Assembly: GCF_014202505.1 (NCBI RefSeq)
Contig: NZ_JACHGW010000004.1
Span: 248,001-312,000 of the forward strand
Direction: 5' to 3'
Origin: Armatimonas rosea
GTDB taxonomy: Bacteria; Armatimonadota; Armatimonadia; Armatimonadales; Armatimonadaceae
Length of the DNA: 64,000 nt
Shown: piece after piece, positions 3,143 to 47,496 of the stretch
Position numbering within the stretch: position 1 is the first letter of the stretch
Layout of the letters: each line of letters opens with the position of its first letter
The notes under the pieces: model-generated
Database searches by the model: none
The model's input: the letters and a program-made list of their open reading frames with translations, nothing else
What the model was told of the DNA's origin: nothing
Translations under genes and position numbers: made by a program

Positions 3143-4152
3143 CACCACGCGAGCTTCGTACCTATCTGGACCGCTTAGTTGCCGAGCGGCTCTTTCTCTC
3201 CGTGATGCTCTGGGGGCCGCCCGGAGTCGGGAAATCGTCGATCGTGGCCCAGGTGGCCGCGAGCCACGGGCTGGACTTTGTGGATGTTCGCCTCTCCCAG
3301 CTCGCGCCGACGGACCTGCGCGGCTTGCCCGTCCCTGACCACGAGAGCCGCGTCTCGCGGTGGTTTGCGCCCGAGTTTCTGCCCCAGACCACCGGGCGGG
3401 GCGGGATTCTCTTTTTGGACGAGCTCAACATGTCTCCCCCGACCATGCAGGGGATCGCGCAGCAGCTGATTCTGGACCGCAAGGTGGGTAGCTACACGGT
3501 CCCCGACGGCTGGTTTATCTGGGCGGCGGGCAACCGCAAGGAAGACCGTGCGGCGGTCTTTGAGATGCCCGCGCCGCTCGCCAACCGCTTTCTGCACCTC
3601 TCGGTCGGGCCGGACATGGACAGCTTTAAGGCATGGGCACTCGAGCGCGGCCTGACCGAGGAGGTGATCGCCTTTCTCGCCTTTCGCCCCAGCCTGCTCC
3701 ACAAGCCCGATCCCCAGCAGCCCGCGTGGCCATCGCCGCGCTCCTGGGAGCTGGCGGGAAAGCTGCTTGCGGCGCGGCTCGATATCGCACCCGCAGTGGG
3801 CGAGGGCGCGGCGGCGGAGCTCGATGCCTACAAGAAGGTCTACCAGGAACTCCCGAGTCTGGAGGCAATCCTGAGTGGCAAGGGGAGCAAGCTGCCCTAC
3901 CCCGACGAGCCCAGTGTGCGCTATGCGGTCGCCATTGGCCTCACGGCGCGGGCAAAGACTCCGGAGCAGGCCCTCCACGGCTTTCTCTGGCTCGTGGAGC
4001 GCGCGCCCGCCGAGTGGGTCCAGCTCTTTATCAGCGACCTACTACGGCTCTGGCGTGCCCAAGGCCGCATGGGCGAGCTCGCCGAGCTCTTCGCCACCGA
4101 GCCTCGTCTCAAGAACCTCGCCGCAGAGTACCTGCAGCTCATGGGGAAATAG
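3139..4152 (+). CDS. MoxR-family AAA+ ATPase
   Basis: 337 aa, AAA_5/MoxR type. Walker A GPPGVGKS is at residues 26-33 and Walker B with ILFLDELN near residue 93. A sensor region AAGNRKEDRAAVFEMP precedes an Asn-Arg (LANRFLHL) typical of MoxR arginine and sensor segments. MoxR ATPases act as chaperone-like remodelers that pair with vWA proteins, and the next gene is one, six bases downstream. The start overlaps the third repeat gene by ATGA, so all five genes form one coupled operon. The substrate is unknown; the repeat proteins are the obvious candidates for adaptors or targets. Confidence 0.93.
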   Translation: MTPRELRTYLDRLVAERLFLSVMLWGPPGVGKSSIVAQVAASHGLDFVDVRLSQLAPTDLRGLPVPDHESRVSRWFAPEFLPQTTGRGGILFLDELNMSPPTMQGIAQQLILDRKVGSYTVPDGWFIWAAGNRKEDRAAVFEMPAPLANRFLHLSVGPDMDSFKAWALERGLTEEVIAFLAFRPSLLHKPDPQQPAWPSPRSWELAGKLLAARLDIAPAVGEGAAAELDAYKKVYQELPSLEAILSGKGSKLPYPDEPSVRYAVAIGLTARAKTPEQALHGFLWLVERAPAEWVQLFISDLLRLWRAQGRMGELAELFATEPRLKNLAAEYLQLMGK

Positions 4153-4157
4153 GGGCC

Positions 4158-5279
4158 ATGGACGATAAAGCGCTACAGGACCGGCTCTCGGGGGCGCTCT
4201 TGCGCCTGCGTGCTCGGCAGCCGTTCTTTGCGGCGCTGGCGCTCTTTGCCGGCTCCGCCCTCTCCGATGCGGTTCCCACGGCGGCCACCGATGGGCGGCG
4301 GATCTTCTGGAACCGGGAGTTTCTGGCGGGACTGAAGAGCGATGAGGTCGATGGTGTCTTGTTGCACGAGGTACTCCACGCCGCGCTCCTGCATGTCACA
4401 CGTCGTGGCACGCGCGACCCGCTCCTCTGGAATATCGCCGCCGATATCGTGGTCAATGGCATGGTAGAGGCGGCCAAGCTCAAGCTCCCGGCGGGTGCGG
4501 TTCGGGAGAAGAAGTGGGAGAAGCTCGCGGTGGAGGAGGTCTACGAGCTCCTTGAAAAGAGTGCAACGACACTCCTGCTCGGGGAGGGGTGGCGCGATCT
4601 TCTCCCGCCCGGTGTGGGGGAGGCGGAAGCGCTCGCGGCGCACTGGCGCGCGGCAAACGCACAAGCACGAGCCCTGATGATGTCGACCGGACAGGGGACC
4701 ATGCCCGCCGGCTGGGACCGGGAGCTGGGCGCACTGGAGCCCGCGCAGCTGGACTGGCGCAGCTACCTCTGGCGGCATCTCGTGCGCACCCCCACCGACT
4801 TCTCTGGCTTCGACCGACGCCTGATCCACCAGGGACTGTATCTCGAAACGCTAGAGGGCGAGTCCGTGCGGGTCTGTGTCTGCATCGACACGTCGGGCTC
4901 CATCGGCCCCAAGCAGCTCTCACAGTTTCTCGGGGAGGTCGTGGGCATCCTGCGCTCCTACCCCCACCTCGTCTGCAATCTCTCCTACGCCGATGCGGCT
5001 CTCTACGGCCCCTACCCACTCACCGGCGACACTCCCATCTCTGAGCTTCCCGCCCCCAAAGGCGGCGGCGGCACGGACTTTCGCCCCTTCTTCGCCGCAG
5101 TCGCCGAGGCAGAACAGAACGGGGACAGCGCCGCCGTCTGTGTCTACCTCACCGATGGCTTCGGCGCGTTCCCCGAACGCCCGTCGGAGGGCCCGACTCT
5201 CTGGGTGGTCAATGCAGGCGGTCTGGGAGCGGAGGAATTTCCCTTTGGTGAGGTCGCGCGCCTACTTCTGGACACCTGA
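4158..5279 (+). CDS. vWA-like protein with DUF2201-type metallopeptidase-like N-terminus
   Basis: 373 aa; the ATG at 4158 follows the MoxR stop by 5 nt. The N-terminal half contains H70-E-V-L-H74, the zinc-binding HExxH motif seen in the DUF2201 N-terminal domain. The C-terminal half is a vWA fold with a MIDAS start CIDTSGS (Asp near residue 244) and a later GGGGTDFRPFF segment. The family is commonly encoded beside AAA_5 ATPases, as here. The pairing suggests an ATP-driven complex in which the vWA domain binds a metal-dependent partner. Whether the HExxH is proteolytically active cannot be told from sequence. The 3' end overlaps the convergent gene by 18 nt. Confidence 0.88.
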   Translation: MDDKALQDRLSGALLRLRARQPFFAALALFAGSALSDAVPTAATDGRRIFWNREFLAGLKSDEVDGVLLHEVLHAALLHVTRRGTRDPLLWNIAADIVVNGMVEAAKLKLPAGAVREKKWEKLAVEEVYELLEKSATTLLLGEGWRDLLPPGVGEAEALAAHWRAANAQARALMMSTGQGTMPAGWDRELGALEPAQLDWRSYLWRHLVRTPTDFSGFDRRLIHQGLYLETLEGESVRVCVCIDTSGSIGPKQLSQFLGEVVGILRSYPHLVCNLSYADAALYGPYPLTGDTPISELPAPKGGGGTDFRPFFAAVAEAEQNGDSAAVCVYLTDGFGAFPERPSEGPTLWVVNAGGLGAEEFPFGEVARLLLDT

Positions 5280-6008
5280 GACGAGCGCTTGGAAGTTTTT
5301 AATGCCCGTGGCCTCGCGCACGTCGCCGGTCTGGAGATCGCGCACCCAGAAGGTCGGGGTCTGCTTGATGCCATGGGCTTTTGCGCCATCCCACTGGGTC
5401 TGAACACGTCGAAAGGCAGCCATGTGCTCCTCGTTGTAGTTCGTCATGTTGAGCTTGAGGCGCTTGCAGATATCCGCATCGCTGAGAGTCTTGAGTGTGT
5501 CGAAATCCCGCTCGAAGGCATCAGCAGTCGAAGAAAAGCGTCCTTGAGCGATCGCCAGCTCCATAATCCAAGCAAACCGAAACGCATCAGGGTGTATAGT
5601 CACGAGGGGAAAAGGGCAAATGCTCAGCCGAATCTGCGGGAGCTTACGCACCTGGGAATGGGCCACCTTGCACGACGGACACTCAAAATCGGTGAACAGA
5701 ATCACGTCGTAGCGGGCGTCCTTTGGGGCAGTGACGGGCGTCAGGAGCGCTTGGATCGCCTTGAAGTCACGCGGCAAGTCCGCGCTCTGTTGCTCCGTGA
5801 TGCGGCTCGTGGTGGTAGTGCCAAGGCGATGTCTGTTGACAAAGCCCACGCCCAGCCCAATGCCAACGACGGCGGCGAGGCTGTAGCGCACCACCAAGGG
5901 AACCGGACGTCGGGGTGCCTCTGGGGGACGCTGGCTCAGGCGAGTGCGCACGGCAGGGCTGAGCCGGGCATCGGCGTGCCAGGCTTGGGTTTTCTCATCA
6001 AGGTTCAT
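5262..6008 (-). CDS. Membrane-anchored DsbA/thioredoxin-fold protein, putative sigma regulator
   Basis: 248 aa. About 38 N-terminal residues precede one membrane segment (VVRYSLAAVVGIGLGVGFV), followed by an extracytoplasmic thioredoxin-like domain with the redox motif FECPSCK and a cis-proline loop KQTPTFWV, as in DsbA-type proteins. The start overlaps the sigma gene (ATG within the sigma stop region), which is the usual position of an anti-sigma factor. No zinc-binding ZAS motif is visible in the short cytoplasmic part. Thiol oxidoreductase activity is supported by motifs. A role in redox-responsive control of the sigma factor is inference from position and from the second locus at the right end. 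Confidence 0.82.
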   Translation of the reverse strand: MNLDEKTQAWHADARLSPAVRTRLSQRPPEAPRRPVPLVVRYSLAAVVGIGLGVGFVNRHRLGTTTTSRITEQQSADLPRDFKAIQALLTPVTAPKDARYDVILFTDFECPSCKVAHSQVRKLPQIRLSICPFPLVTIHPDAFRFAWIMELAIAQGRFSSTADAFERDFDTLKTLSDADICKRLKLNMTNYNEEHMAAFRRVQTQWDGAKAHGIKQTPTFWVRDLQTGDVREATGIKNFQALVSGVQK

Positions 6009-37170: not shown

Positions 37171-37176
37171 ATTCTA
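37171..37176 (-). promoter_or_regulatory. Leaderless -10 box (TAGAAT) overlapping a stop codon
   Basis: TAGAAT is 6 nt before the dusB GTG. Its first three bases (37174-37176) are the TAG stop of the upstream cytochrome gene. Confidence 0.55.
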
Positions 37177-38265
37177 TCGTGTGGGCTTGCCGTCTTTGTA
37201 AATGCGAATGAAGTGATCGGCCATCTTGATCGGAAAGCTCGTCCCGGGAAAGACCTTGGCAGTCGGCATGTGGCAGGAGACACACTTCTCCTTGGGATTC
37301 ACCGGGCAGGCTTTCTTGGGCGCGGCGTGGCACGAAACACAGACCGCCTCGTAGCGCTTCGTGTCCGTAGACGCGTCCTCGTGCGGGTTGTGGCACGTCA
37401 CGCAGCTTAGCTTGTCGTTGCTCTGTTTGAAGCACTGGCTCAGCGAGAGGCCGTAGGGCATGAACCGGCTAGTCGCCTGCTTGGAGAGCTCGTCCATGTG
37501 CTCCACATCGGCGGGGGCGCGGTGACAGCGGCCACAGACCTCGTTGAGGCGCTTGCCCCCCGTGCCGCGGAGGGCGGTGAGCAGGACGCCCTTGGACTTA
37601 TCGCCCTTTTGCATCGCCGCGACGTGCTCGCTCCCTGGACCGTGGCAAGACTCGCACCCCACCCCGAAGAACTTCCGCTCCGGCATCAAGGAGTCCGGGG
37701 GCAAGACCACGGCATGGCAACCGACGCAGCGCTGGGAGTCGTCCTTGGGATGGATCCAGCCCACGGAGGTGGCCTCAAACTTCTCCTGACCCGGCGTGAC
37801 GATCCACTGTTTGGTGTGCGGGAAGTAGCTATGGCGCAGCTCCAAGCTCCCCTCAGAATCGACAGCCAGAAAGGTGATCCCCGTCTTCCCCGAGCCCAAA
37901 GCAAGATCTAGGGGCGCAGCAAGCGTCATATTGGTCTGCTGGGCGGGCGCGACCACATTGAGCTGGCCTTTTTCCCAGGCCAGCGCACTCTCACCGGGGA
38001 GCGGACCAGCGGGCGGCGCAAGCGCCCCCAGCTCGGACTGGGTGGCTTTTCGCAGGGTCTGCATGTGCCGGGTATTCGTATGGCTCTTAAACTCCGCCGC
38101 GTGACACGGCTTGCAAGCATCGTTGCCGAGAAACTGCGCCGTATTGGGTGTGGGAGCGGGACTCGGTGCGGTCTCCGACTTCGGCGTGGTGGGAGTACAG
38201 GCCGCCACCCAAAGGACAATGAGCGGAAGAAGGGCTGCGGGGACAAGGGTACGAGGAGGCATCAT
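37174..38265 (-). CDS. Heptaheme cytochrome c lipoprotein, paralogue 5
   Basis: 363 aa. Lipobox LWVAAC, then seven CxxCH haem motifs: CKPCH, CVGCH, CESCH, CGRCH, CVTCH, CVSCH, CVSCH. Fits the multihaem cytochrome c554-like group: periplasmic or outer-envelope electron carriers. The segment from CVTCH to the last haem (37265-37416) is nearly identical at DNA level to the four upstream paralogues. TATACT (38277-38282) lies 11 nt before the ATG, so it may have a short leader. Physiological partner unknown. Confidence 0.92.
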   Translation of the reverse strand: MMPPRTLVPAALLPLIVLWVAACTPTTPKSETAPSPAPTPNTAQFLGNDACKPCHAAEFKSHTNTRHMQTLRKATQSELGALAPPAGPLPGESALAWEKGQLNVVAPAQQTNMTLAAPLDLALGSGKTGITFLAVDSEGSLELRHSYFPHTKQWIVTPGQEKFEATSVGWIHPKDDSQRCVGCHAVVLPPDSLMPERKFFGVGCESCHGPGSEHVAAMQKGDKSKGVLLTALRGTGGKRLNEVCGRCHRAPADVEHMDELSKQATSRFMPYGLSLSQCFKQSNDKLSCVTCHNPHEDASTDTKRYEAVCVSCHAAPKKACPVNPKEKCVSCHMPTAKVFPGTSFPIKMADHFIRIYKDGKPTR

Positions 38266-38284
38266 TGACGTCGCTTAGTATACT

Positions 38285-39379
38285 CTACTTCCGAAAAACC
38301 CGGATAAAGTGGTCGGCCATGCTCACGGAAAACTCCGCATTGGCAAACGCCGAGCGCGTGGGCATGTGGCAAGACACGCACTTCTCCTTGGGATTCACCG
38401 GGCAGGCTTTCTTAGGCGCGGCATGGCACGAGACACAGACCGCCTCGTACTGCTTCGTATCCGTAGACGCGTCCTCGTGCGGGTTGTGGCATGTCACGCA
38501 GCTCAGCTTGTCGTCGGACTTCTGGAAGCACTTGCTCAGCGAGAGACCGTACGGCTGGAAGCGATTGGTTGCGGTCTTGGAGAGGTTATCTTGGGTGATC
38601 GACTCCAGGGTCTGGTGGCACTTGCCGCAGACCGCGCTCACTTTCTTCCCGCCAACACCACGAAGAGCCGTGAGCAGGAGCCCCTTGGACTTATCGCCCT
38701 TTTGCATGGCGGTGGCGTGTGCACCGCCCGGCCCGTGGCAGGACTCGCAGCCCACCCCGAAGAAACGGCGCTCCGGTAGAAGCGGGGCATCGGGCGGGGA
38801 GACCGCGTGGCACGCAATGCACTTGACCGTCTCCGGCGCACTCAGGCTCGCGGCGACCACGTTTTTTTCGTAGCGCTCCATCCCCGGCGTGAAGAACCAC
38901 TTTTTCTCCGGGGGAAAGTAGCTCTTGCGCAACTCGACACTGCCTTGATCATGAACCGCGAGGCAGGTCATTCCGGTCTTCCCCGAGCCCAGCACGAGAT
39001 CAATGGGGACCGGAACGGGCGCCCCCGTGTCTTTGTTTGGGACGATCACGGTTAGCTGGCCTTGGTCCCAGGTCACCTCGCCCCCCGCGCCCGGAATCGG
39101 TCCGGCGGGAGGCGCGAGCGGTCCCAGTGCCGCCTGCGTCCCCTCGCGGAGGGTCTGCATGTGACGGGTGTGTGCGTGGCTGGCAAACTCGGTTTCGTGG
39201 CACGGCTTGCAAGCATCATTGCCGACGAAGCCCGATGCGGTTGCCGCCACGGAGGGCTCGGTGCCCCAGCCCTTTCCGCCCGCTTCACCTCCCGGCTCGG
39301 GGGCGCTCGGGGTGCAGGCGGCAAAGGCGAGCAGGAGCAGGGGTAGAGCCAGCGCCCCGAGGCGAGCCCCGGCTCTCAT
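38285..39379 (-). CDS. Heptaheme cytochrome c lipoprotein, paralogue 4
   Basis: 364 aa; ATGA overlap with paralogue 3. Lipobox AFAAC and seven haem motifs (CKPCH, CIACH, CESCH, CGKCH, CVTCH, CVSCH, CVSCH). A Gly-rich linker follows the lipidation site. The middle contains LVLGSGKTGMTCLAVHDQG, a segment shared by the set. The conserved 3' block lies at 38361-38512. Confidence 0.93.
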   Translation of the reverse strand: MRAGARLGALALPLLLLAFAACTPSAPEPGGEAGGKGWGTEPSVAATASGFVGNDACKPCHETEFASHAHTRHMQTLREGTQAALGPLAPPAGPIPGAGGEVTWDQGQLTVIVPNKDTGAPVPVPIDLVLGSGKTGMTCLAVHDQGSVELRKSYFPPEKKWFFTPGMERYEKNVVAASLSAPETVKCIACHAVSPPDAPLLPERRFFGVGCESCHGPGGAHATAMQKGDKSKGLLLTALRGVGGKKVSAVCGKCHQTLESITQDNLSKTATNRFQPYGLSLSKCFQKSDDKLSCVTCHNPHEDASTDTKQYEAVCVSCHAAPKKACPVNPKEKCVSCHMPTRSAFANAEFSVSMADHFIRVFRK

Positions 39380-40470
39380 TTCTTAAAGACCCGAATAAAG
39401 TGATCGGCCATTTTGGTGGGGATGGTGGTTCCCGCAAACACCTGGCGCGTGGGCATGTGGCAGGAGACGCACTTCTCCTTGGGATTCACGGGGCAGACGG
39501 TCTTGGGCGCGGCATGGCACGAGACACAGACCGCCTCGTAGCGCTTCGTATCCGTAGACGCGTCCTCGTGCGGGTTGTGGCATGTCACGCAGCTTAGCTT
39601 GTCCGCAGATTTCTGAAAGCACTTACTCAACGAGAGACCATACGGCTGGAAACGCTGGGTTTGCTGAGAGCTCACCGGATCGTTGCGGTCGATAGTGGCG
39701 GCGGTTCGGTGGCACTTCCCACAGGTCTCCAGCACGACCGAGCCAGGGGCGGCCTTGAGTCCTTCGATCAGTGCCTTGCTCGGCTTCCCCGCTTCTGCAG
39801 CGGCGACATGGGCGCTTCCGGGGCCGTGGCACGCCTCACAGCCGACCCCGATAAAGCGCTTCTCCAGTCCCAGCCGATCCGGCGGCAGGGTGACGGCGTG
39901 GCAGAGGACACACTTGCGAGCAATCGCCCCAGGGACATGGTCCCCCGGCGCGGTGCTGGGGACTTTTTCCTGGCCGGGCGTGGTGTACCAGGTCTTGGTG
40001 GAGACAAAGTAGCTCTTGTGGAGCTCGGTCAGGGTGCCATCCGCAAAGGCGGTCGCGTAGGTAACTCCGGTCTTCCCCGAGCCAAAGGCCAAATGAAGTG
40101 GCAGGGCAACCTTGCCTCCTGCCAGCACAAACCGTCCCTCGGCACGCTTGAGGGAAAACGGGGTTCCAGGGATCTTCCCCACGGGCGGAGTGAGCTCTCC
40201 CAGCTCGCCCTCCACGGCGCGGCGCAGGGTCCGCATGTGCCGGCTTTCTCCATGGGTCTTGGCGAGCTCGGCATGGCAGGGGCTACACGCGGGAGTCCCA
40301 ACAAACTCTGCCTCGTCGAGAGCACTCAGGCTCGCCGCCGTCTCCGCCACTGGGGGCGCGGCGGTGGGGAGCGGTGTCGGAGAGGCCACGGGCGGCGCTT
40401 CTTGTTGGCAACCCGGAGCCAGAAGCAGGCACACCAGGAGGGCCAAGGGGCCAAGCAGACGCCAGATCAT
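39376..40470 (-). CDS. Heptaheme cytochrome c lipoprotein, paralogue 3
   Basis: 364 aa. Lipobox LLAPGC and seven haem motifs, with CSPCH and CVLCH as variants; the most diverged in its N-terminal half (GTPACSPCHAELAKTHGESR), yet its 3' block (39452-39603) matches the others closely. TAAAAT (40477-40482) lies 6 nt before the ATG, giving it a promoter of its own. Confidence 0.93.
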   Translation of the reverse strand: MIWRLLGPLALLVCLLLAPGCQQEAPPVASPTPLPTAAPPVAETAASLSALDEAEFVGTPACSPCHAELAKTHGESRHMRTLRRAVEGELGELTPPVGKIPGTPFSLKRAEGRFVLAGGKVALPLHLAFGSGKTGVTYATAFADGTLTELHKSYFVSTKTWYTTPGQEKVPSTAPGDHVPGAIARKCVLCHAVTLPPDRLGLEKRFIGVGCEACHGPGSAHVAAAEAGKPSKALIEGLKAAPGSVVLETCGKCHRTAATIDRNDPVSSQQTQRFQPYGLSLSKCFQKSADKLSCVTCHNPHEDASTDTKRYEAVCVSCHAAPKTVCPVNPKEKCVSCHMPTRQVFAGTTIPTKMADHFIRVFKK

Positions 40471-40476
40471 GGGGGG

Positions 40477-40482
40477 ATTTTA
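40477..40482 (-). promoter_or_regulatory. Leaderless -10 box (TAAAAT) overlapping a stop codon
   Basis: GGTAAAAT with six C residues before the ATG at 40470; bases 40480-40482 are the TAA stop of cytochrome paralogue 2. Confidence 0.6.
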
Positions 40483-41601
40483 CCGTGTTTTTTGGCTCTC
40501 GCGGAAGACCCGGATGAAGTGATCCGCCATGGCGATGGGAATGGCACTCTTGTCCTTGGGGAACAGCCGCCGCGTGGGCATGTGGCAGGAGACGCACTTC
40601 TCCTTGGGATTCACGGGGCAGGCTTTCTTGGGCGCGGAGTGGCACGAGACACAGACCGCCTCGTACTGCTTCGTGTCGGTCGACGCATCCTCGTGCGGGT
40701 TGTGGCATGTCACGCAGCTTAGCTTGTCCGCAGATTTCTGAAAGCACTTGCTCAGCGAAAGACCGTACGGCTGGAAACGCTGGGTGGAGTCCTTGGGCAG
40801 GTTGTTCTCCGCGACGGTCTTGGCGGTCTGGTGGCACTTTCCGCAGACCTCGTTGAGGCGTGCGCCGCCGATCCCCGAGAGAGTGGGAAGACGCAGCCCC
40901 TTGGACTTGTCGCCCGTCTCCATCGCCGTGACATGCTCGCGGCCCGGCCCGTGGCACGACTCGCACCCCACGCCAAAGAACTTCCGCTCGGGCAGGAGCT
41001 CGGTGGAGCCAGGGACGGTATGACACCCCACACAGCGGCGGGTCTCGGCGACACTGTGAGACTGGCCCACAACCGTGCTCTCAAAGGTCTCCTGGCTGGG
41101 GGTAACAATAAAGTTCTTGGTGTGAGGAAAGTAGCTCTGGCGAATCTCCACACTGCCCTGGTCGTGCACCGCCAGGAAGGTCAGCCCCGTCTTCCCCGAG
41201 CCCAGCACGAGATCCAGAGGGACGGGCACAGGCTCGCCGTTGTCCTTGCTTGGCGCGATCAGGGTGAGCTGCCCCTGGTCCCACGCAAGCTCCCCCGCCC
41301 CAGGAAGCGGCCCCGCCGGAGGGGCCAGCTCGCCCAGAGCCGCTTGTGTCGCGGGACGCAGGGTCTGCATGTGCTTGGTGGGGGCGTGCATCGAAAACTC
41401 CGCAGAGTGGCACGCTTTACAGGAGTCGTTGCCGACATAGGGATTGGTCGCCACGGCACTACTCGCCGTGGCCCCCTCCCCCCAGCCCTTGCCGCTCGAC
41501 GCGCTTGGGGTATCCGAGGCCGTGGGAGTACAAGCGGCGACCACGAGTACAGCCATGGGGAGAAGCAAGGCAAGAAACACACGGAGGGATCGAAACGTCA
41601 T
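40480..41601 (-). CDS. Heptaheme cytochrome c lipoprotein, paralogue 2
   Basis: 373 aa, the longest of the set because of a C-terminal extension (ESQKTR) and a Ser-rich linker. Lipobox VVAAC; haem motifs CKACH, CVGCH, CESCH, CGKCH, CVTCH, CVSCH, CVSCH. ATGA overlap with paralogue 1. Conserved block 40577-40728. Confidence 0.93.
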   Translation of the reverse strand: MTFRSLRVFLALLLPMAVLVVAACTPTASDTPSASSGKGWGEGATASSAVATNPYVGNDSCKACHSAEFSMHAPTKHMQTLRPATQAALGELAPPAGPLPGAGELAWDQGQLTLIAPSKDNGEPVPVPLDLVLGSGKTGLTFLAVHDQGSVEIRQSYFPHTKNFIVTPSQETFESTVVGQSHSVAETRRCVGCHTVPGSTELLPERKFFGVGCESCHGPGREHVTAMETGDKSKGLRLPTLSGIGGARLNEVCGKCHQTAKTVAENNLPKDSTQRFQPYGLSLSKCFQKSADKLSCVTCHNPHEDASTDTKQYEAVCVSCHSAPKKACPVNPKEKCVSCHMPTRRLFPKDKSAIPIAMADHFIRVFRESQKTR

Positions 41602-42683
41602 TTTTTGAAAACTCGGATAAAGTGATCGGCCATGGCGATGGGAATCTCGCTCTTGGCCGTGTTAAAGATACGGCGCGTGGGCATGTGGCAGGAGACACAC
41701 TTCTCCTTGGGATTCACTGGGCAGGCTTTCTTGGGCGCGGCGTGGCACGAGACACAGACCGCCTCGTACTGCTTCGTATCCGTAGACGCGTCCTCGTGCG
41801 GGTTGTGGCATGTCACGCAGCTTAGCTTGTCCGCAGACTTCTGGAAGCACTTACTCAACGAAAGACCGTACGGCTGGAAACGCTGGGTCATCTCGCGTGC
41901 CCCCGCATCCATCGCCGCGACATCGCTGGGGGTGCGGTGGCAGGTCCCACAGGCCTCGTTGAGGCGCTTGCCCCCGACACCACGGAGAGCGGTGAGCAGG
42001 ACGCCCTTGGACTTGTCGCCCTTTTGCATCGCCACCACATGCTCGCTTCCCGGACCGTGGCAAGACTCACACCCCACCCCGAAGAAACGGCGCTCCGGCA
42101 GGAGGCGGCTCTGGGGAAGGGTCACACAGTGGCAGGTGAGGCACTGCATCGTGGCATCCTTGGTGTAGATGCGCCCGTTGTGGCCCTCCTGCGCCCGCTC
42201 CTGCCCCGGCGTCAGAAACCACTTTTTCTCGTGGGGGAAGTAGCTCTGGCGAATCTCCGCGCCGGTCTCCGTAAAGAGCGCCATAAAGGTCATCCCGGTC
42301 TTACCCGAGCCCAGCACGACGCTCAAGGGAACCCGCTCCCCTGGCTTCAGTGCGATGGGTGAGTCGGCGTGGAAGCGGCCCTGCTCAAGGGTGAAGGTGC
42401 CGCCCCCGGGGACGGCACCAGGTGTGGGTGCGAGCTCCCCCAGGTCTTCCTGCGTGGCCTCGTGGAGGGTCTGCATGTGCTTGGTGTGCGCGTGGCTCGT
42501 GAACTCTGCGGCGTGGCACGGCTTGCAAGCGGCGTTGCCCATGAAGAGTGTGGGTTCCAGGGAGGCCGGGTCTGGAGTCGCCACGGGAGCGCTGGGAGCG
42601 GGGGGCTCGGGAGCCTTGGGTGTACAGGCGGCGAGTAGCAACACCAAAATCGGGGCGATCCCACAGAGCACACGCCAGGTCAT
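41598..42683 (-). CDS. Heptaheme cytochrome c lipoprotein, paralogue 1
   Basis: 361 aa, first gene of the array. Lipobox LLAAC; seven haem motifs (CKPCH, CLTCH, CESCH, CGTCH, CVTCH, CVSCH, CVSCH). Expected on the outer face of a membrane after lipidation and haem attachment, in respiratory or extracellular electron transfer. No cytochrome maturation or terminal reductase gene is nearby. Conserved block 41680-41831. TAGAAT lies 6 nt before the ATG. Confidence 0.93.
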   Translation of the reverse strand: MTWRVLCGIAPILVLLLAACTPKAPEPPAPSAPVATPDPASLEPTLFMGNAACKPCHAAEFTSHAHTKHMQTLHEATQEDLGELAPTPGAVPGGGTFTLEQGRFHADSPIALKPGERVPLSVVLGSGKTGMTFMALFTETGAEIRQSYFPHEKKWFLTPGQERAQEGHNGRIYTKDATMQCLTCHCVTLPQSRLLPERRFFGVGCESCHGPGSEHVVAMQKGDKSKGVLLTALRGVGGKRLNEACGTCHRTPSDVAAMDAGAREMTQRFQPYGLSLSKCFQKSADKLSCVTCHNPHEDASTDTKQYEAVCVSCHAAPKKACPVNPKEKCVSCHMPTRRIFNTAKSEIPIAMADHFIRVFKK

Positions 42684-42784: not shown

Positions 42785-43423
42785 ATGGACATGAAAAAAT
42801 TTGGTTTCTCGATGCTTGGTGTGGCGTGCGTGGCCCTGAGTGGCTGTGGTGCGGTCAACAATGCAATTAACTCCGCCATCCCCGAGATCGACAATCTGGC
42901 ACAGCTCAATGGCTCTAATGTCAATGCAACTGTGGGCTCGGGCCGCGCGGTGATCTCGGGCAACGTCAGCCGCAGTGTCACCTTCCCCGACCGCGACCTG
43001 CCCCAGGTCAGCCAGCTCAAGACCCTGCGCCTGCGCCAGAGCCTCGACCAAGCGATCCAGGTGGACATGCCCAGCGGCGCGAGCTACCCCGCCGCGTTCA
43101 CGCTGAGCAATATCACCCTCCAGATCCGGCTCTCCGACGGCGACGGCAGCCGCTTCACGGAGTCCTCGGCGACCTATGCCGGCCCGGTGACCTTTACCCG
43201 CGACGGCACCACCAATATCTACCGCACGACAGCCACGGTCGAGGTCTCCAATATCACGTTCTCGGGCTCCGGGTTTAGCTCGGCCCGCGATATTATCACG
43301 ACCGCGCCCTCGTCCAACTCCGCCAGTGGCCGACTGAGCTTCGATGCCGACGATACCCAGCTCCCCAATGGGACGGTCCTCAAGTTCACGTTTGCCAATG
43401 GCAAGGCCAAGGTAGAGCTCTAG
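42785..43423 (+). CDS. Hypothetical lipoprotein
   Basis: 212 aa from the ATG at 42785 (or 210 from 42791). Signal peptide MKKFGFSMLGVACVALSGC with the lipobox ALSGC. The mature domain is beta-rich (GSGRAVISGNVSRSVTFPD, FTLSNITLQIRLSDGDGSR), possibly one all-beta domain. No enzyme motif. The 3' end overlaps the convergent PurA-like gene by 38 nt. Confidence 0.75.
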   Translation: MDMKKFGFSMLGVACVALSGCGAVNNAINSAIPEIDNLAQLNGSNVNATVGSGRAVISGNVSRSVTFPDRDLPQVSQLKTLRLRQSLDQAIQVDMPSGASYPAAFTLSNITLQIRLSDGDGSRFTESSATYAGPVTFTRDGTTNIYRTTATVEVSNITFSGSGFSSARDIITTAPSSNSASGRLSFDADDTQLPNGTVLKFTFANGKAKVEL

Positions 43424-44678
43424 CCACGCCACGCTTGTCGCTCGCCGTCTTCCCCCACGAGGTGACGGCGAGTGGCCTCTCCAGCGCCGCCGCGAGCGCC
43501 ACTGCATGTGCCTCCGCCGAGCCGGCCCAGGTTTTATAGAGTGGGCGGGCGCTCCGAAGCGACTCCGTCAGCGATTCCTGGTAGCCAAGATCCTGCCACG
43601 GGCCAGGACTCAGCGTCAGATTCTCGTAGCCATCCCCCACCTTCCATTCCGCACCCGCTGCCTCCATGCGATCGAGACAGGTCACCGCCAGGCATTCCAC
43701 GCGCCCCGCGACCCTGAGGCTATAGCGCAGGAGCTCCAGATCGGGCCACCCGACCCGCAGTGCCCCCTGCCACGGATTCTCCGGGTTGGTATCGTCGGGG
43801 AGGGTAGTGGTCAGCGCCGCATCTTCGGTAGGAAACGGCCCGGCACCGTGGCGTGTCGCGTAGCCGCGGATCACCCCCAGCGATACGACCTGCGCCCCAC
43901 TTCCTTCGAGCAAGCGGTAGGCATTCTCTGTCGTGACAGTCGACCAGGTGGTGTAGGGATGAAACCCGCGCCACTCGTCGAGCAGGACCCCCTGCGCCCC
44001 TTCAAAGACCGTCGCCGCCGCCGGGTTGCGCAGGTGCCGCAGGAGAAAGCCAGGATCGGCCACGGTCGCACTGCCCAGGAGCCCCTGGCAGAGCGCGATC
44101 CACGCCTCCGCCTCTTCGTCCTCCGCCTCCATGACTAAGCCGGGACACTCGGCATGCTTGCGGGCACGGTGCCGGTTCAGGCGCTCCGGGAGAGTCCTGG
44201 GGTTGAGTAGGTCCCGCACCCGCAGGGCATCGTCGGGGACAGCGAGCGCTTCTGCCTGGGTCTCCCCAATCCCCAGCCCGCAGGAGCCATGCCGACCAGC
44301 CCCGCGCCGCTGCTCTCTGTAGCGGTTGGCGGCCATGTGCCAGGGTGTCGTCACCAACGCATCTGGGTGCAGGATCAGGCGGCTTAGAGCGTCCGTAACC
44401 CCCACGGCTCTCAGCAGCTCGCTCTCCCAAAACAGCGTGAGCGGATTGACCAGCATGTGCTCCGAGAGGTAGGTTCGCACGCCTGGGACAAAGCTCCCCG
44501 AGCCAAGCTGCTGGAAGGTGTGCGCTCTGCCATCAGGGGTCAGGACGGCATGGGCCGCCTGTGCGCCGCCGCTGTGGCGGACAATCAGGGGGAGGCGCCC
44601 GGAAGCGGCAAGCTCCCGGGTCGCCCAGTCGACCATGGTCCCTTTCCCACTGTCACCAAAGAGGAGGTCCGTGACAAT
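43386..44678 (-). CDS. Divergent adenylosuccinate-synthetase (PurA)-like protein, start unclear
   Basis: About 430 aa. GTP P-loop LLFGDSGKGT, the catalytic-type His in GGAQAAHAV, FEGAQGVLLDEWRGFHPY and GYATRHGAGPFPTE match PurA segments, but the rest is far diverged. PurA couples GTP hydrolysis to joining IMP and aspartate; a paralogue may act on another nucleotide. The P-loop lies upstream of the first ATG (44636). Between it and an in-frame TAG (44697-44699) the only near-cognate starts are ATT (44678) and ACG. An AUU start, read-through from the vWA gene or a sequence error are possible. ATT is used here as a provisional start. Confidence 0.75.
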   Translation of the reverse strand: MVTDLLFGDSGKGTMVDWATRELAASGRLPLIVRHSGGAQAAHAVLTPDGRAHTFQQLGSGSFVPGVRTYLSEHMLVNPLTLFWESELLRAVGVTDALSRLILHPDALVTTPWHMAANRYREQRRGAGRHGSCGLGIGETQAEALAVPDDALRVRDLLNPRTLPERLNRHRARKHAECPGLVMEAEDEEAEAWIALCQGLLGSATVADPGFLLRHLRNPAAATVFEGAQGVLLDEWRGFHPYTTWSTVTTENAYRLLEGSGAQVVSLGVIRGYATRHGAGPFPTEDAALTTTLPDDTNPENPWQGALRVGWPDLELLRYSLRVAGRVECLAVTCLDRMEAAGAEWKVGDGYENLTLSPGPWQDLGYQESLTESLRSARPLYKTWAGSAEAHAVALAAALERPLAVTSWGKTASDKRGVARALPWPCHWQT

Positions 44679-44696
44679 GAGGGCCTGGTGTGTGGT

Positions 44697-45656
44697 CTAG
44701 AGACGAACGGCGCGACCGCCGCCCTCCAGCCCCACCAGCGCGTTGCTCGCCACCGGCACGAGGCTTCCGGGGGCGATGGTCCCAAGCGAGCTCGCCGCCG
44801 CCGCCACGCGTCCGGCATCGAAGCCATGCTTCTTGAGCGCTATCGCCGAGTCTGTGACCGTCCGCCCCGCCAGCGCCCCGATCGTCATGGCGAGCTGGGG
44901 GACGATCTGCTCACGCTCGGCGGCTCGGATGACGTGCTGTGCGGGCAGTAGCTCTTTCCAGGACTGCTCGATCCCCTTGTCGTCGAAGTGGTACGTGCCA
45001 CCGGGACGGATCAGAAAGACATTCCAGCGCCGCTGCAGCTCCTCGGCGAGCTGGGCGGTCGGGATGTCCTGCCCGATCTCCTCGCCCAGCCAGTTCTTCA
45101 CGGCATCGCGGCTGACGTTTTTATAGTAGTTCTCGTCGCCGATCAGAAAGAGAGCGCCTTTTGTGCCGCGCTTCTCCCAGGCATCGGTCTGGACATGGCG
45201 GGCGAAGAAGTACAGCGCCAGGTCGTATGACTCCTCGTGGGTTCCGCCACCACCGCCCTCCAGGTAGATCTGCGAGAGGCACGTCTCCACCAAGGCATCG
45301 TCGGCCTCAAACTCCCCCATCTGGAGCGGAGCGGAGTCGCAGAAGGCATCCCCGACCGCGCCAAAGCAGAGCTGTGGGTTGGCGACAATGCTCTCCTTGA
45401 GGACAAAGCCCATGAGCTTGCCCAGCTCTTTTTGGAGGTAGTTCGGGATATCGCGCATCGAGCCCGTGACATCGAACATCACGGCGATCGGAAAGGAGAG
45501 CGGGCTGTCGGCGTTGTCGCGCGACTCCCGGTAGAGCTTGTCACGAACGTCCATCTTCTTGTGCAAGCCACTGTGCGTAAAGAGCGAGGTTCCCGTTGCT
45601 GCCCGAGCCGCGGCGCGGGCGCTGTAGCTGACGGTATCAAAGTATCCAGATCCCAT
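44697..45656 (-). CDS. vWA-domain protein
   Basis: 319 aa. MIDAS motif in AVMFDVTGSMRDIPN (D-x-T-G-S) and a later GGGGGTHEESYDLAL (Thr) support metal-dependent ligand binding. The N-terminal 30 residues are Ala/Ser rich and the C-terminus is helical (VPQLAMTIGALAGRTVTDS). GGGG precedes the ATG at modest spacing. It lies 35 nt after the kinase-like gene and its TAG is in frame with the PurA-like gene. Probable cytoplasmic scaffold of a complex with its neighbours. Confidence 0.88.
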   Translation of the reverse strand: MGSGYFDTVSYSARAAARAATGTSLFTHSGLHKKMDVRDKLYRESRDNADSPLSFPIAVMFDVTGSMRDIPNYLQKELGKLMGFVLKESIVANPQLCFGAVGDAFCDSAPLQMGEFEADDALVETCLSQIYLEGGGGGTHEESYDLALYFFARHVQTDAWEKRGTKGALFLIGDENYYKNVSRDAVKNWLGEEIGQDIPTAQLAEELQRRWNVFLIRPGGTYHFDDKGIEQSWKELLPAQHVIRAAEREQIVPQLAMTIGALAGRTVTDSAIALKKHGFDAGRVAAAASSLGTIAPGSLVPVASNALVGLEGGGRAVRL

Positions 45657-45691: not shown

Positions 45692-46801
45692 CTAAGGAAC
45701 GATAAACTCGGCAAAACGACGATTCCCCAGGAGAGTACCGAGGCTCTCGTGGGCTCGTTCGGCGTCGGAGAGGCGCCGCGTTGGGTCGGGGAGGGTGCAC
45801 TGCTCCAGGAAGCGCTGCAGGGGCGCATCGAGGGTCGTTGCATAATCTCCCAGGAGATAGAGTGCGGTCTTGGCCGCTTGAAAGAGATCACTGCTGGTGC
45901 TGGCAGGGGCGCGACTGAGGAGCTCCGGCGGTGCGAACCCTTTCCAGGATGCATCGTAGACGGGAACCGGCTCGTGCCCGAGGCGGCTCGCGCAGGTCCA
46001 GTCGAGGAGTACAATCCCGTGTGCCTCGGGGTAGATCAGGAGGTGATCGGGAGTGACCGCGCCGTGGGCGTAGCCCTTGAGATGCGCGAGCCAGAGGGTC
46101 AGAAACAGCCGCCGCAGGATCCACCAGACCTGCCTTGGCTCGACCCCCACCTGGAATTTCTCATCGCGAAGCTGCTGCGCGGTGAAGCAGCGTCCCTCAG
46201 GAACCGAGAGGAGATTCACCGCTTGACGCCCCCCCGCAAGCCCGGCAACCGTGAAGTGGGCGTAGGAGACGGGGACATAGGCGCGCTGCTTGGCGTAGAA
46301 CTCCCGCTCGACAACAGGGTCCCGGTGGGGCGTGTGGAGCACCCGTAGCGCCTGGAACTCACGCTCCAGCAGGTCGTTGTCCGCTGGCTCACGACAGACC
46401 TTGGCAAAGACGCGCTGCCCCGGCACGGCGGCGGTGAAGTGCGCCTCGTAGACCGTGCTCACCAGCCCTGCCGCGTGGATTCCCGTGAGCGTGAGGAGCT
46501 CATCGCCCAGGAAGAGCTCCTGCGGCTCGAACAGCGGCTTCTGGTCGCCGTAGGTCTCCAGCTCCAGCTTGCGCTCCGCCTGCCCGCGCCAGGAGTTGAG
46601 CAAGCGAAAGACCTCCGCTGCCAGGGCCTGGTCGCTCTCAGGGACGCGATCCGGGTGGCAGTTCTTGGCCAGGGATCGAAAGACCTCCGAGAGCGCCTGG
46701 CGTAGGGTCGTGGCGCTGTAGCCCTCAAGCCGGCCAAAGACTTGCTCCGGGCACGTGACCTGCTCCAGGTGGAACTTAAGTGTCTCCAGGTTTTCTCGCA
46801 T
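45692..46801 (-). CDS. J-domain-like/protein-kinase-like fusion, probably degenerate kinase
   Basis: 369 aa from the ATG at 46801. N-terminal SLAKNCHPDRVPESDQALAA has the HPD of J-domains with flanking helices (about 15-75). From about 90 a protein-kinase fold begins: RVFAKVC (Lys), HGAVTPDHLLIY in place of the HRD catalytic loop, and LLDWTCAS in place of DFG, with the metal Asp kept. The HRD Asp shifted or missing suggests weak or no kinase activity. It heads the minus-strand operon with vWA and PurA-like genes and is divergent from DUF4291. Confidence 0.72.
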   Translation of the reverse strand: MRENLETLKFHLEQVTCPEQVFGRLEGYSATTLRQALSEVFRSLAKNCHPDRVPESDQALAAEVFRLLNSWRGQAERKLELETYGDQKPLFEPQELFLGDELLTLTGIHAAGLVSTVYEAHFTAAVPGQRVFAKVCREPADNDLLEREFQALRVLHTPHRDPVVEREFYAKQRAYVPVSYAHFTVAGLAGGRQAVNLLSVPEGRCFTAQQLRDEKFQVGVEPRQVWWILRRLFLTLWLAHLKGYAHGAVTPDHLLIYPEAHGIVLLDWTCASRLGHEPVPVYDASWKGFAPPELLSRAPASTSSDLFQAAKTALYLLGDYATTLDAPLQRFLEQCTLPDPTRRLSDAERAHESLGTLLGNRRFAEFIVP

Positions 46802-46902
46802 AGTTATTGTCACAATCACAATTTATCGCATTTTTAGGATTCCGCCATAGTATTTTTGGTATATTTTAGCGCTTGGTGTAGGTGTCTCGATAGAGCACTG
46901 CC
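46802..46902. promoter_or_regulatory. A/T-rich divergent promoter region
   Basis: 101 bp between the kinase-like and DUF4291 genes, strikingly A/T rich. TTGGTATATTTTAG (near 46856-46869) has TATATT as a plus-strand -10 candidate, and GATAAA on the minus strand lies upstream of the kinase ATG. A shared regulator for both sides is plausible; no operator palindrome is evident. Confidence 0.5.
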
Positions 46903-47496
46903 ATGCCCGAGCTCTATGCGATCCGCGCCACCTACGACAAAGAGACCATCACGGTCTACCAGGCCTACAACGACACCATCGCCGATGCGGCTCTAGCGGC
47001 CCAGACCTTTGTCGCGCCGTTCTCGTTCCAGCGCATGACCTGGATCAAGCCGTCGTTCTTGTGGCTCATGGAGCGGAGCAACTGGGGCCAGAAGTCGGGG
47101 CAGGAGCGCATCCTCGCGATCCGCATCAAGCGCGCCGGCTGGGAAGAAGCCCTCGCGCTGGGCGTCCTCACCCACCCCGAGCCCGCGCTCTGGCCCAACC
47201 CGGACAGCTGGCGCACCGCCTTTGCAGCCGCGAAGGTTCATGTCCAGTGGGACCCGGAGCGCAGCCTGCGCGGCGCTGCCCTGCCCTACTTCTCCATCCA
47301 AGTCGGCCTCAGCCGAAACCTAATCCAGCGCTACACCGACGACTGGATCGTGGGAATTGACGACAAAACCCCGCTCGTGCGCAAGCTCCACAAGCTAATC
47401 CAAGCGGGCAGCGCCGCTGCTGCCCTCAAGCTCCTGCCTCGCGAACGGGTCTACGAACCTAGAGTGTCCGAAGATGGAAGCCGCCATCGATATTGA
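46903..47496 (+). CDS. DUF4291 family protein
   Basis: 197 aa. The match to DUF4291 rests on [37 protein letters not shown] and [18 protein letters not shown], which appear in this order in family members. The family is of unknown biochemical function, with conserved Arg, Tyr, Trp and Lys in the first half. Divergent from the kinase/vWA/PurA-like operon. The 3' end overlaps the convergent SDR gene by 38 nt. Confidence 0.75.

Follow-up and report, generated by a model that had tools for sequence, protein, structure and literature searches.

Members of the protein family phrog_1211 are annotated as PurA-like in Mycobacterium phages. In phage Sebata such a gene (gene 263, '2-aminooxy adenylosuccinate synthetase' or 'PurA-like adenylosuccinate synthetase') comes after genes for a kinase and a vWA protein, and its annotated start overlaps the preceding stop codon. 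The PurA superfamily also comprises canonical PurA (PF00709, TIGR00184, NF002223) and PurZ/DgsS (7odx, 6fko), phage-borne enzymes that serve in 2-aminoadenine synthesis. Proteins of the NUDIX and vWA kinds occur together in ARG-centred conflict systems (PMC9503650), and ADP-ribose is the molecule that NUDIX transcription factors of the NrtR kind detect in systems other than the present one (PMC9503650, section 3.8).

The locus described here lies in a 64-kb stretch of DNA, referred to as the window (genome G000, contig C4, positions 248001-312000), from a genome of 6.33 Mb assembled into 19 contigs (98.2% complete, 0.43% contamination). A kinase-like gene, a vWA gene and a PurA-like gene follow one another on the minus strand, in the gene order typical of the family and the same as that of Sebata (Table 1). 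The window protein and the product of Sebata gene 263 are 38.9% identical over 96% of the query and the kinase and vWA proteins of the two loci are related; Sebata differs in having an extra small gene between vWA and PurA and in having a start for its PurA-like gene, which the window copy lacks.

Table 1. Features of the kinase-vWA-PurA locus, in window coordinates
Feature	Position	Strand	Remarks
PurA-like frame, 436 aa, phrog_1211 family	43386..44696	-	no ATG, GTG or TTG ahead of the P-loop; open from 44696 to a stop ending at 43386
GDSGKGT P-loop of the PurA-like protein, residues 14-20	44637..44657	-	residues kept across the family
First ATG of the PurA-like frame, residue 21	44634..44636	-	behind the P-loop
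ATT, residue 7	44676..44678	-	sole strong near-cognate start; falls within beta-1, a predicted strand of residues 4-10
TAG stop of the vWA gene	44697..44699	-	in frame with the PurA-like frame and immediately ahead of it
vWA protein gene, 319 aa, phrog_2971 family	44697..45656	-	intact
Kinase-like gene, 375 aa, phrog_3043 'kinase'	45692..46819	-	intact; first in the cassette

The PurA-like protein matched PF00709 (E=1.4e-54) and, over residues 4-347, phrog_1211 (E=9.2e-66), and its AlphaFold2 model (pLDDT 89) showed the PurA fold. The NCBIfam cut-offs for PurA were missed widely, with scores of 127.6 of 395.55 bits and 151.9 of 402 bits, and the genome carries a separate canonical PurA. The P-loop, catalytic-histidine and guanine-aspartate positions (G14, D15, K18 and G19; H49; D342) are kept as in canonical PurA, whereas the positions equivalent to T129, R143, T300, T301 and R303 are replaced; the family majority differs at all five, each of which is kept by at least 26 of the 27 canonical PurA sequences of the phylum used for comparison. 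We take H49 and D342 to be the catalytic histidine and the guanine-binding aspartate, alongside the P-loop, and the five replaced positions to belong to the IMP and aspartate sites; R143L and R303L mutants are present among the PurA structures matched by fold. The protein is therefore not a canonical PurA, it is a member of the PurA-like family phrog_1211, and the name 'PurA-like' given to it in the original prediction holds at the superfamily level but does not extend to the substrate-site residues, which are altered in this family. PurZ/DgsS, a partial fold match, was matched much more weakly than PurA itself, and to our knowledge the vWA and kinase partners that characterize the window cassette are absent beside PurZ. 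The protein may help to make, or to sense, some molecule resembling a nucleotide.

Relatives came from four sources: 151 related genomes, the 291 phylum genomes available, a collection of GTDB contigs, in which 80 of 161 loci were retained, and IMG/VR (23 loci). A kinase match was found in 55 of the 83 cellular loci of the family, 50 of them ordered kinase-vWA-PurA; another 22 have vWA and no kinase match (some being short of upstream sequence), and 6 have no vWA match. Among the IMG/VR loci vWA was present in 22 of 23 and a kinase match in 15, while the terminase search exceeded its cut-off in 3 of the 23, so that most of these records are not thereby shown to be phage. The window protein was also matched by 226 of 50,697 phage records, 195 of them over at least 80% of the query, matches of all families being counted together. 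Bacteria and phages have the kinase-vWA-PurA cassette in common.

The cassette, whose PurA-like enzyme has the altered substrate-site residues, is spread over many bacterial phyla and often stands beside a gene of the NUDIX or NrtR type: two queries found such a gene in 25 of the loci searched. In one locus of the same phylum (L114, see below) an NrtR-type winged-helix gene adjoins the cassette. The vWA protein, together with the NUDIX-type regulator near some members, recalls the ARG-centred conflict systems as a resemblance only; PMC9503650 makes no mention of PurA. The matches from PADLOC were weak and confined to the kinase gene. In the literature searched, which took in few subscription journals, no description of the kinase-vWA-PurA-like cassette as a system was found.

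On the minus strand the vWA gene ends with CGT CTC TAG, and the PurA-like gene continues in the same reading frame with ACC ACA CAC CAG GCC CTC ATT GTC ACG GAC CTC CTC TTT, followed by the P-loop codons GGT GAC AGT GGG AAA GGG ACC and by ATG. Codon-by-codon reading of the 13 codons between the TAG and the P-loop revealed no ATG, GTG or TTG; just two of them, ATT and, at 44672-44670, ACG, differ from ATG by a single base. The original prediction, which had placed the P-loop ahead of the first ATG and named these two near-cognates, was thus borne out on both points. The junction contains no homopolymer.

Starts were counted in 81 of the 83 cellular loci; two loci without an N-terminal P-loop were dropped, one a degraded copy (L006) and the other (L085) having the P-loop segment in the middle of the protein. 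All 81 have an ATG, GTG or TTG 10-25 codons ahead of the P-loop, and all 23 IMG/VR orthologues likewise have a canonical start in that range. Among the 105 sequences compared the window copy alone lacks this feature, otherwise universal in the sample.

The vWA gene lies directly upstream of the PurA-like gene in 72 of the 81 cellular relatives, and in 26 of these 72 the two overlap by 4 nt at stop and start. The two genes share one frame across the stop in 12 of the 72, as they do in the window; the continuity of the frame across the TAG is therefore unremarkable and, taken alone, weak evidence. Since in some relatives (L050, L069) the vWA gene ends in an in-frame TAG and PurA then starts normally, the oddity is the missing start and not the TAG. 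The original prediction had expected that orthologues with normal starts and no TAG would speak against it; the orthologues do start normally, but some of them have the TAG. The vWA C-terminus, RL before the stop, is kept in 18 of the 72 relatives. One of them is the nearest relative (L004; same family, 56% identity), in which there is a spacer and the ATG precedes the P-loop by 15 codons; no closer orthologue was detected in the 291 genomes of the phylum, in plasmids or in IMG/VR. By comparison, it looks as if the window junction has lost the spacer or overlap together with the start codon and has retained the vWA end.

In the locus with the displaced segment (L085, a MAG of Uhrbacteria, about 4000-5320), the beta-1/P-loop segment (query residues 4-44) is located mid-protein, just ahead of an FE.AQGV motif, and the ATG start of the PurA-like gene precedes an NGGAQ motif. 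This is either a segment-permuted PurA or an assembly fault. A similar supply of the P-loop from elsewhere was rejected for the window copy, as no second P-loop segment was found within the 64 kb.

An unusual start codon, read-through of the TAG and an error in the sequence were the explanations offered by the original prediction. They were the right ones to choose between, but the list omitted the case that the decaying gene has genuinely lost its start, which we rank first, followed by sequence error, initiation at a non-AUG codon and read-through. That the start codon has been genuinely and recently lost, and that the PurA-like gene is unexpressed or barely expressed, we hold to be about an even chance. 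A small change at the vWA/PurA junction would have removed the start codon in a correctly deposited sequence; the last gene of the cassette, having lost its start, would then be untranslated, or would yield very little protein through stray initiation, and the vWA and kinase genes would remain intact while it was silenced. This reading is favoured because the 13 codons hold no start where every cellular and IMG/VR relative counted has one, and because no good alternative is at hand, the ATT cutting into beta-1 and the pairing with 16S rRNA being no better than random. The loss would be recent, as the remainder of the frame is still protein-like even in the codons upstream of the ATT: in the alignment the ALIVTD of the beta-1 region remains family-like. 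Of 79 columns with at least 95% conservation across 82 orthologues, 75 are kept. The four deviations place the window copy at rank 74 of 83; they neither show nor exclude relaxation, because the intact phylum relatives L004 and L005 have 5 and 4, and lost conserved residues were accordingly rejected as evidence of decay. The family is rare in the phylum (4 of 291 genomes), and decay has a precedent there, half of the four other copies being broken. Both are in genome G036, where assembly faults are possible: in L006 (contig C16) the N-terminal part is unreadable, and in L114 (contig C24) the kinase lies in two frames, vWA is absent and PurA begins only at residue 224. Speaking against a genuine loss, the window gene preserves its conserved residues about as well as the intact phylum relatives do, it has accumulated no stop or frameshift and its GC and GC3 resemble those of the neighbouring genes, so that nothing except the start shows decay; moreover, the sequence comes from one assembly. 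A deposited sequence that is wrong at the junction, in an organism with a normal start there, would agree with the presence of a start in every comparable orthologue and with the good preservation of the rest of the gene, and a start could be masked by as few as one or two erroneous bases. We consider such an error unlikely, although slightly less so than the first of the two explanations taken up below: the assembly looks good by contig number, completeness and contamination, the genes checked (canonical PurA, the two RF-1 family genes and infC) have no internal stops, the junction is not a homopolymer, and the vWA stop is not obviously wrong, because its RL end agrees with that of relatives.

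Initiation without AUG, either by a restart after the TAG at the neighbouring ACC or ACA or by a start at the ATT, could yield the PurA-like protein in low, useful amounts, and is in our judgement unlikely. The 4-nt overlap of the relatives is typical of coupled translation, and the codons upstream of the ATT are still coding-like. However, beta-1 spans residues 4-10 in the predicted structure, so that a start at the ATT would be expected to remove about half of this strand; a start at the first ATG would remove the P-loop. For the sequence upstream of the TAG the pairing energy predicted with the 16S tail was -2.9 kcal/mol, and for that upstream of the ATT it was -2.5 kcal/mol, values that 56% and 62%, respectively, of 2000 random 16-mers equalled or surpassed; neither site thus has Shine-Dalgarno support above random 16-mers. 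The ATT is found 18 nt past the vWA stop, at codon -7 from the P-loop as against -25 to -10 for the starts of relatives, so that it trails the start of each orthologue counted by 3 codons or more, and no near-cognate codon with a ribosome-binding site occupies the conserved start position. Genes with a natural AUU start, such as infC, have the near-cognate codon in common with the window frame, whereas the window ATT is off the family start position, lacks a Shine-Dalgarno sequence and is not conserved in orthologues; the infC frame of this genome itself has an ATG near the expected start. Translational coupling has been reviewed (PMC12548453). In published work, AUU ranks among the seven strongest start codons of E. 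coli, where some initiation occurs at 47 of 64 codons (PMC12350097, citing another study), and a frame-shifted cI gene is functional from ACA (PMC6397469); against this, reinitiation is all but lost when stop and start lie about 20 nt apart (PMC10666635), and natural switches to AUU affect 1 of 61,358 AUG starts and 1 of 5,080 GUG starts (PMC5622118). Reliance on a codon other than ATG, GTG or TTG was seen in none of the 81 cellular and 23 IMG/VR orthologues. AUU as the natural start, the first proposal of the original prediction, was rejected on account of its position inside beta-1 and past the stop and the missing Shine-Dalgarno sequence. From the pairing values and the published initiation and reinitiation data, low-level translation of the PurA-like gene is possible and ordinary expression unlikely. 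It is improbable that the full-length protein arises by restart at or next to the vWA TAG on a codon too unlike AUG to count as near-cognate (UAG, ACC, ACA or CAC), with strict upstream coupling and no start codon setting its beginning. Read-through of the TAG would produce a vWA-PurA fusion about 756 aa long; it is the least probable explanation, and very improbable in itself. The frames are continuous across the TAG and coupled neighbours might tolerate fusion, but relatives have the same-frame arrangement as well, and none of the 72 relatives with an adjacent vWA gene is fused. The genome has two RF-1 family genes, presumably RF1 and RF2 by their PxT and SPF motifs, and no CUA anticodon was called among 78 tRNA matches in this 98.2% complete genome (one tRNA being without a called anticodon and a few weak matches uncalled). 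With no fused relative, both presumed release factors and no such tRNA called, the fusion offered as an option in the original prediction is unlikely, and recoding of the TAG was set aside, no suppressor tRNA being seen among the tRNA matches.

Returning to the loss of the start codon, we infer that the change at the junction is real and silences or strongly lowers expression; probably the PurA-like gene is on its way to silence or loss, or else its reading is unconventional. Provided that the sequence is correct, the locus offers a clean natural case of an otherwise intact bacterial gene whose sole visible lesion is a start lost downstream of a gene to which it is normally coupled. It lends itself to simple tests of how well termination-reinitiation copes when the start codon is missing, and of how kinase-vWA-PurA cassettes decay.

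Some unusual tRNA genes were noted outside the window. On another contig (G000:C1:1185900-1189200), divergent tRNA genes with low scores form an array, and for one of them no anticodon was called. On the minus strand of the window's contig (C4:212680-212801) a tRNA gene, the outer part of which was read as Ile2/Met CAU-like, carries an insert of about 49 nt in the anticodon loop. It recurs with 98% conservation in G001, the other genome of the genus, and is absent from G005 and G010, where the halves are contiguous; in G008 the gap is about 280 nt. The insert gave no match to the Rfam intron families; group I introns are usually far longer. A second tRNA gene, read as Lys UUU-like (C4:624771-624900, minus strand), has an anticodon-loop insert of about 58 nt, which is 88% identical in G001, whereas the halves are contiguous in G002, G005, G008-G011 and G017; its fold is stable (z -4.07).

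Within the window, a DUF4291 gene (PF14124, E=4.2e-70) is located at 46903-47496 on the plus strand, divergent from the kinase gene; it was not found as a regular neighbour of other cassettes, with one weak match in L114. On the other side of the cassette, at 37174-42683 on the minus strand, five paralogous lipoprotein-like genes with multiple CXXCH motifs (multihaem cytochrome-like) stand in tandem, their C-termini near-identical by eye.
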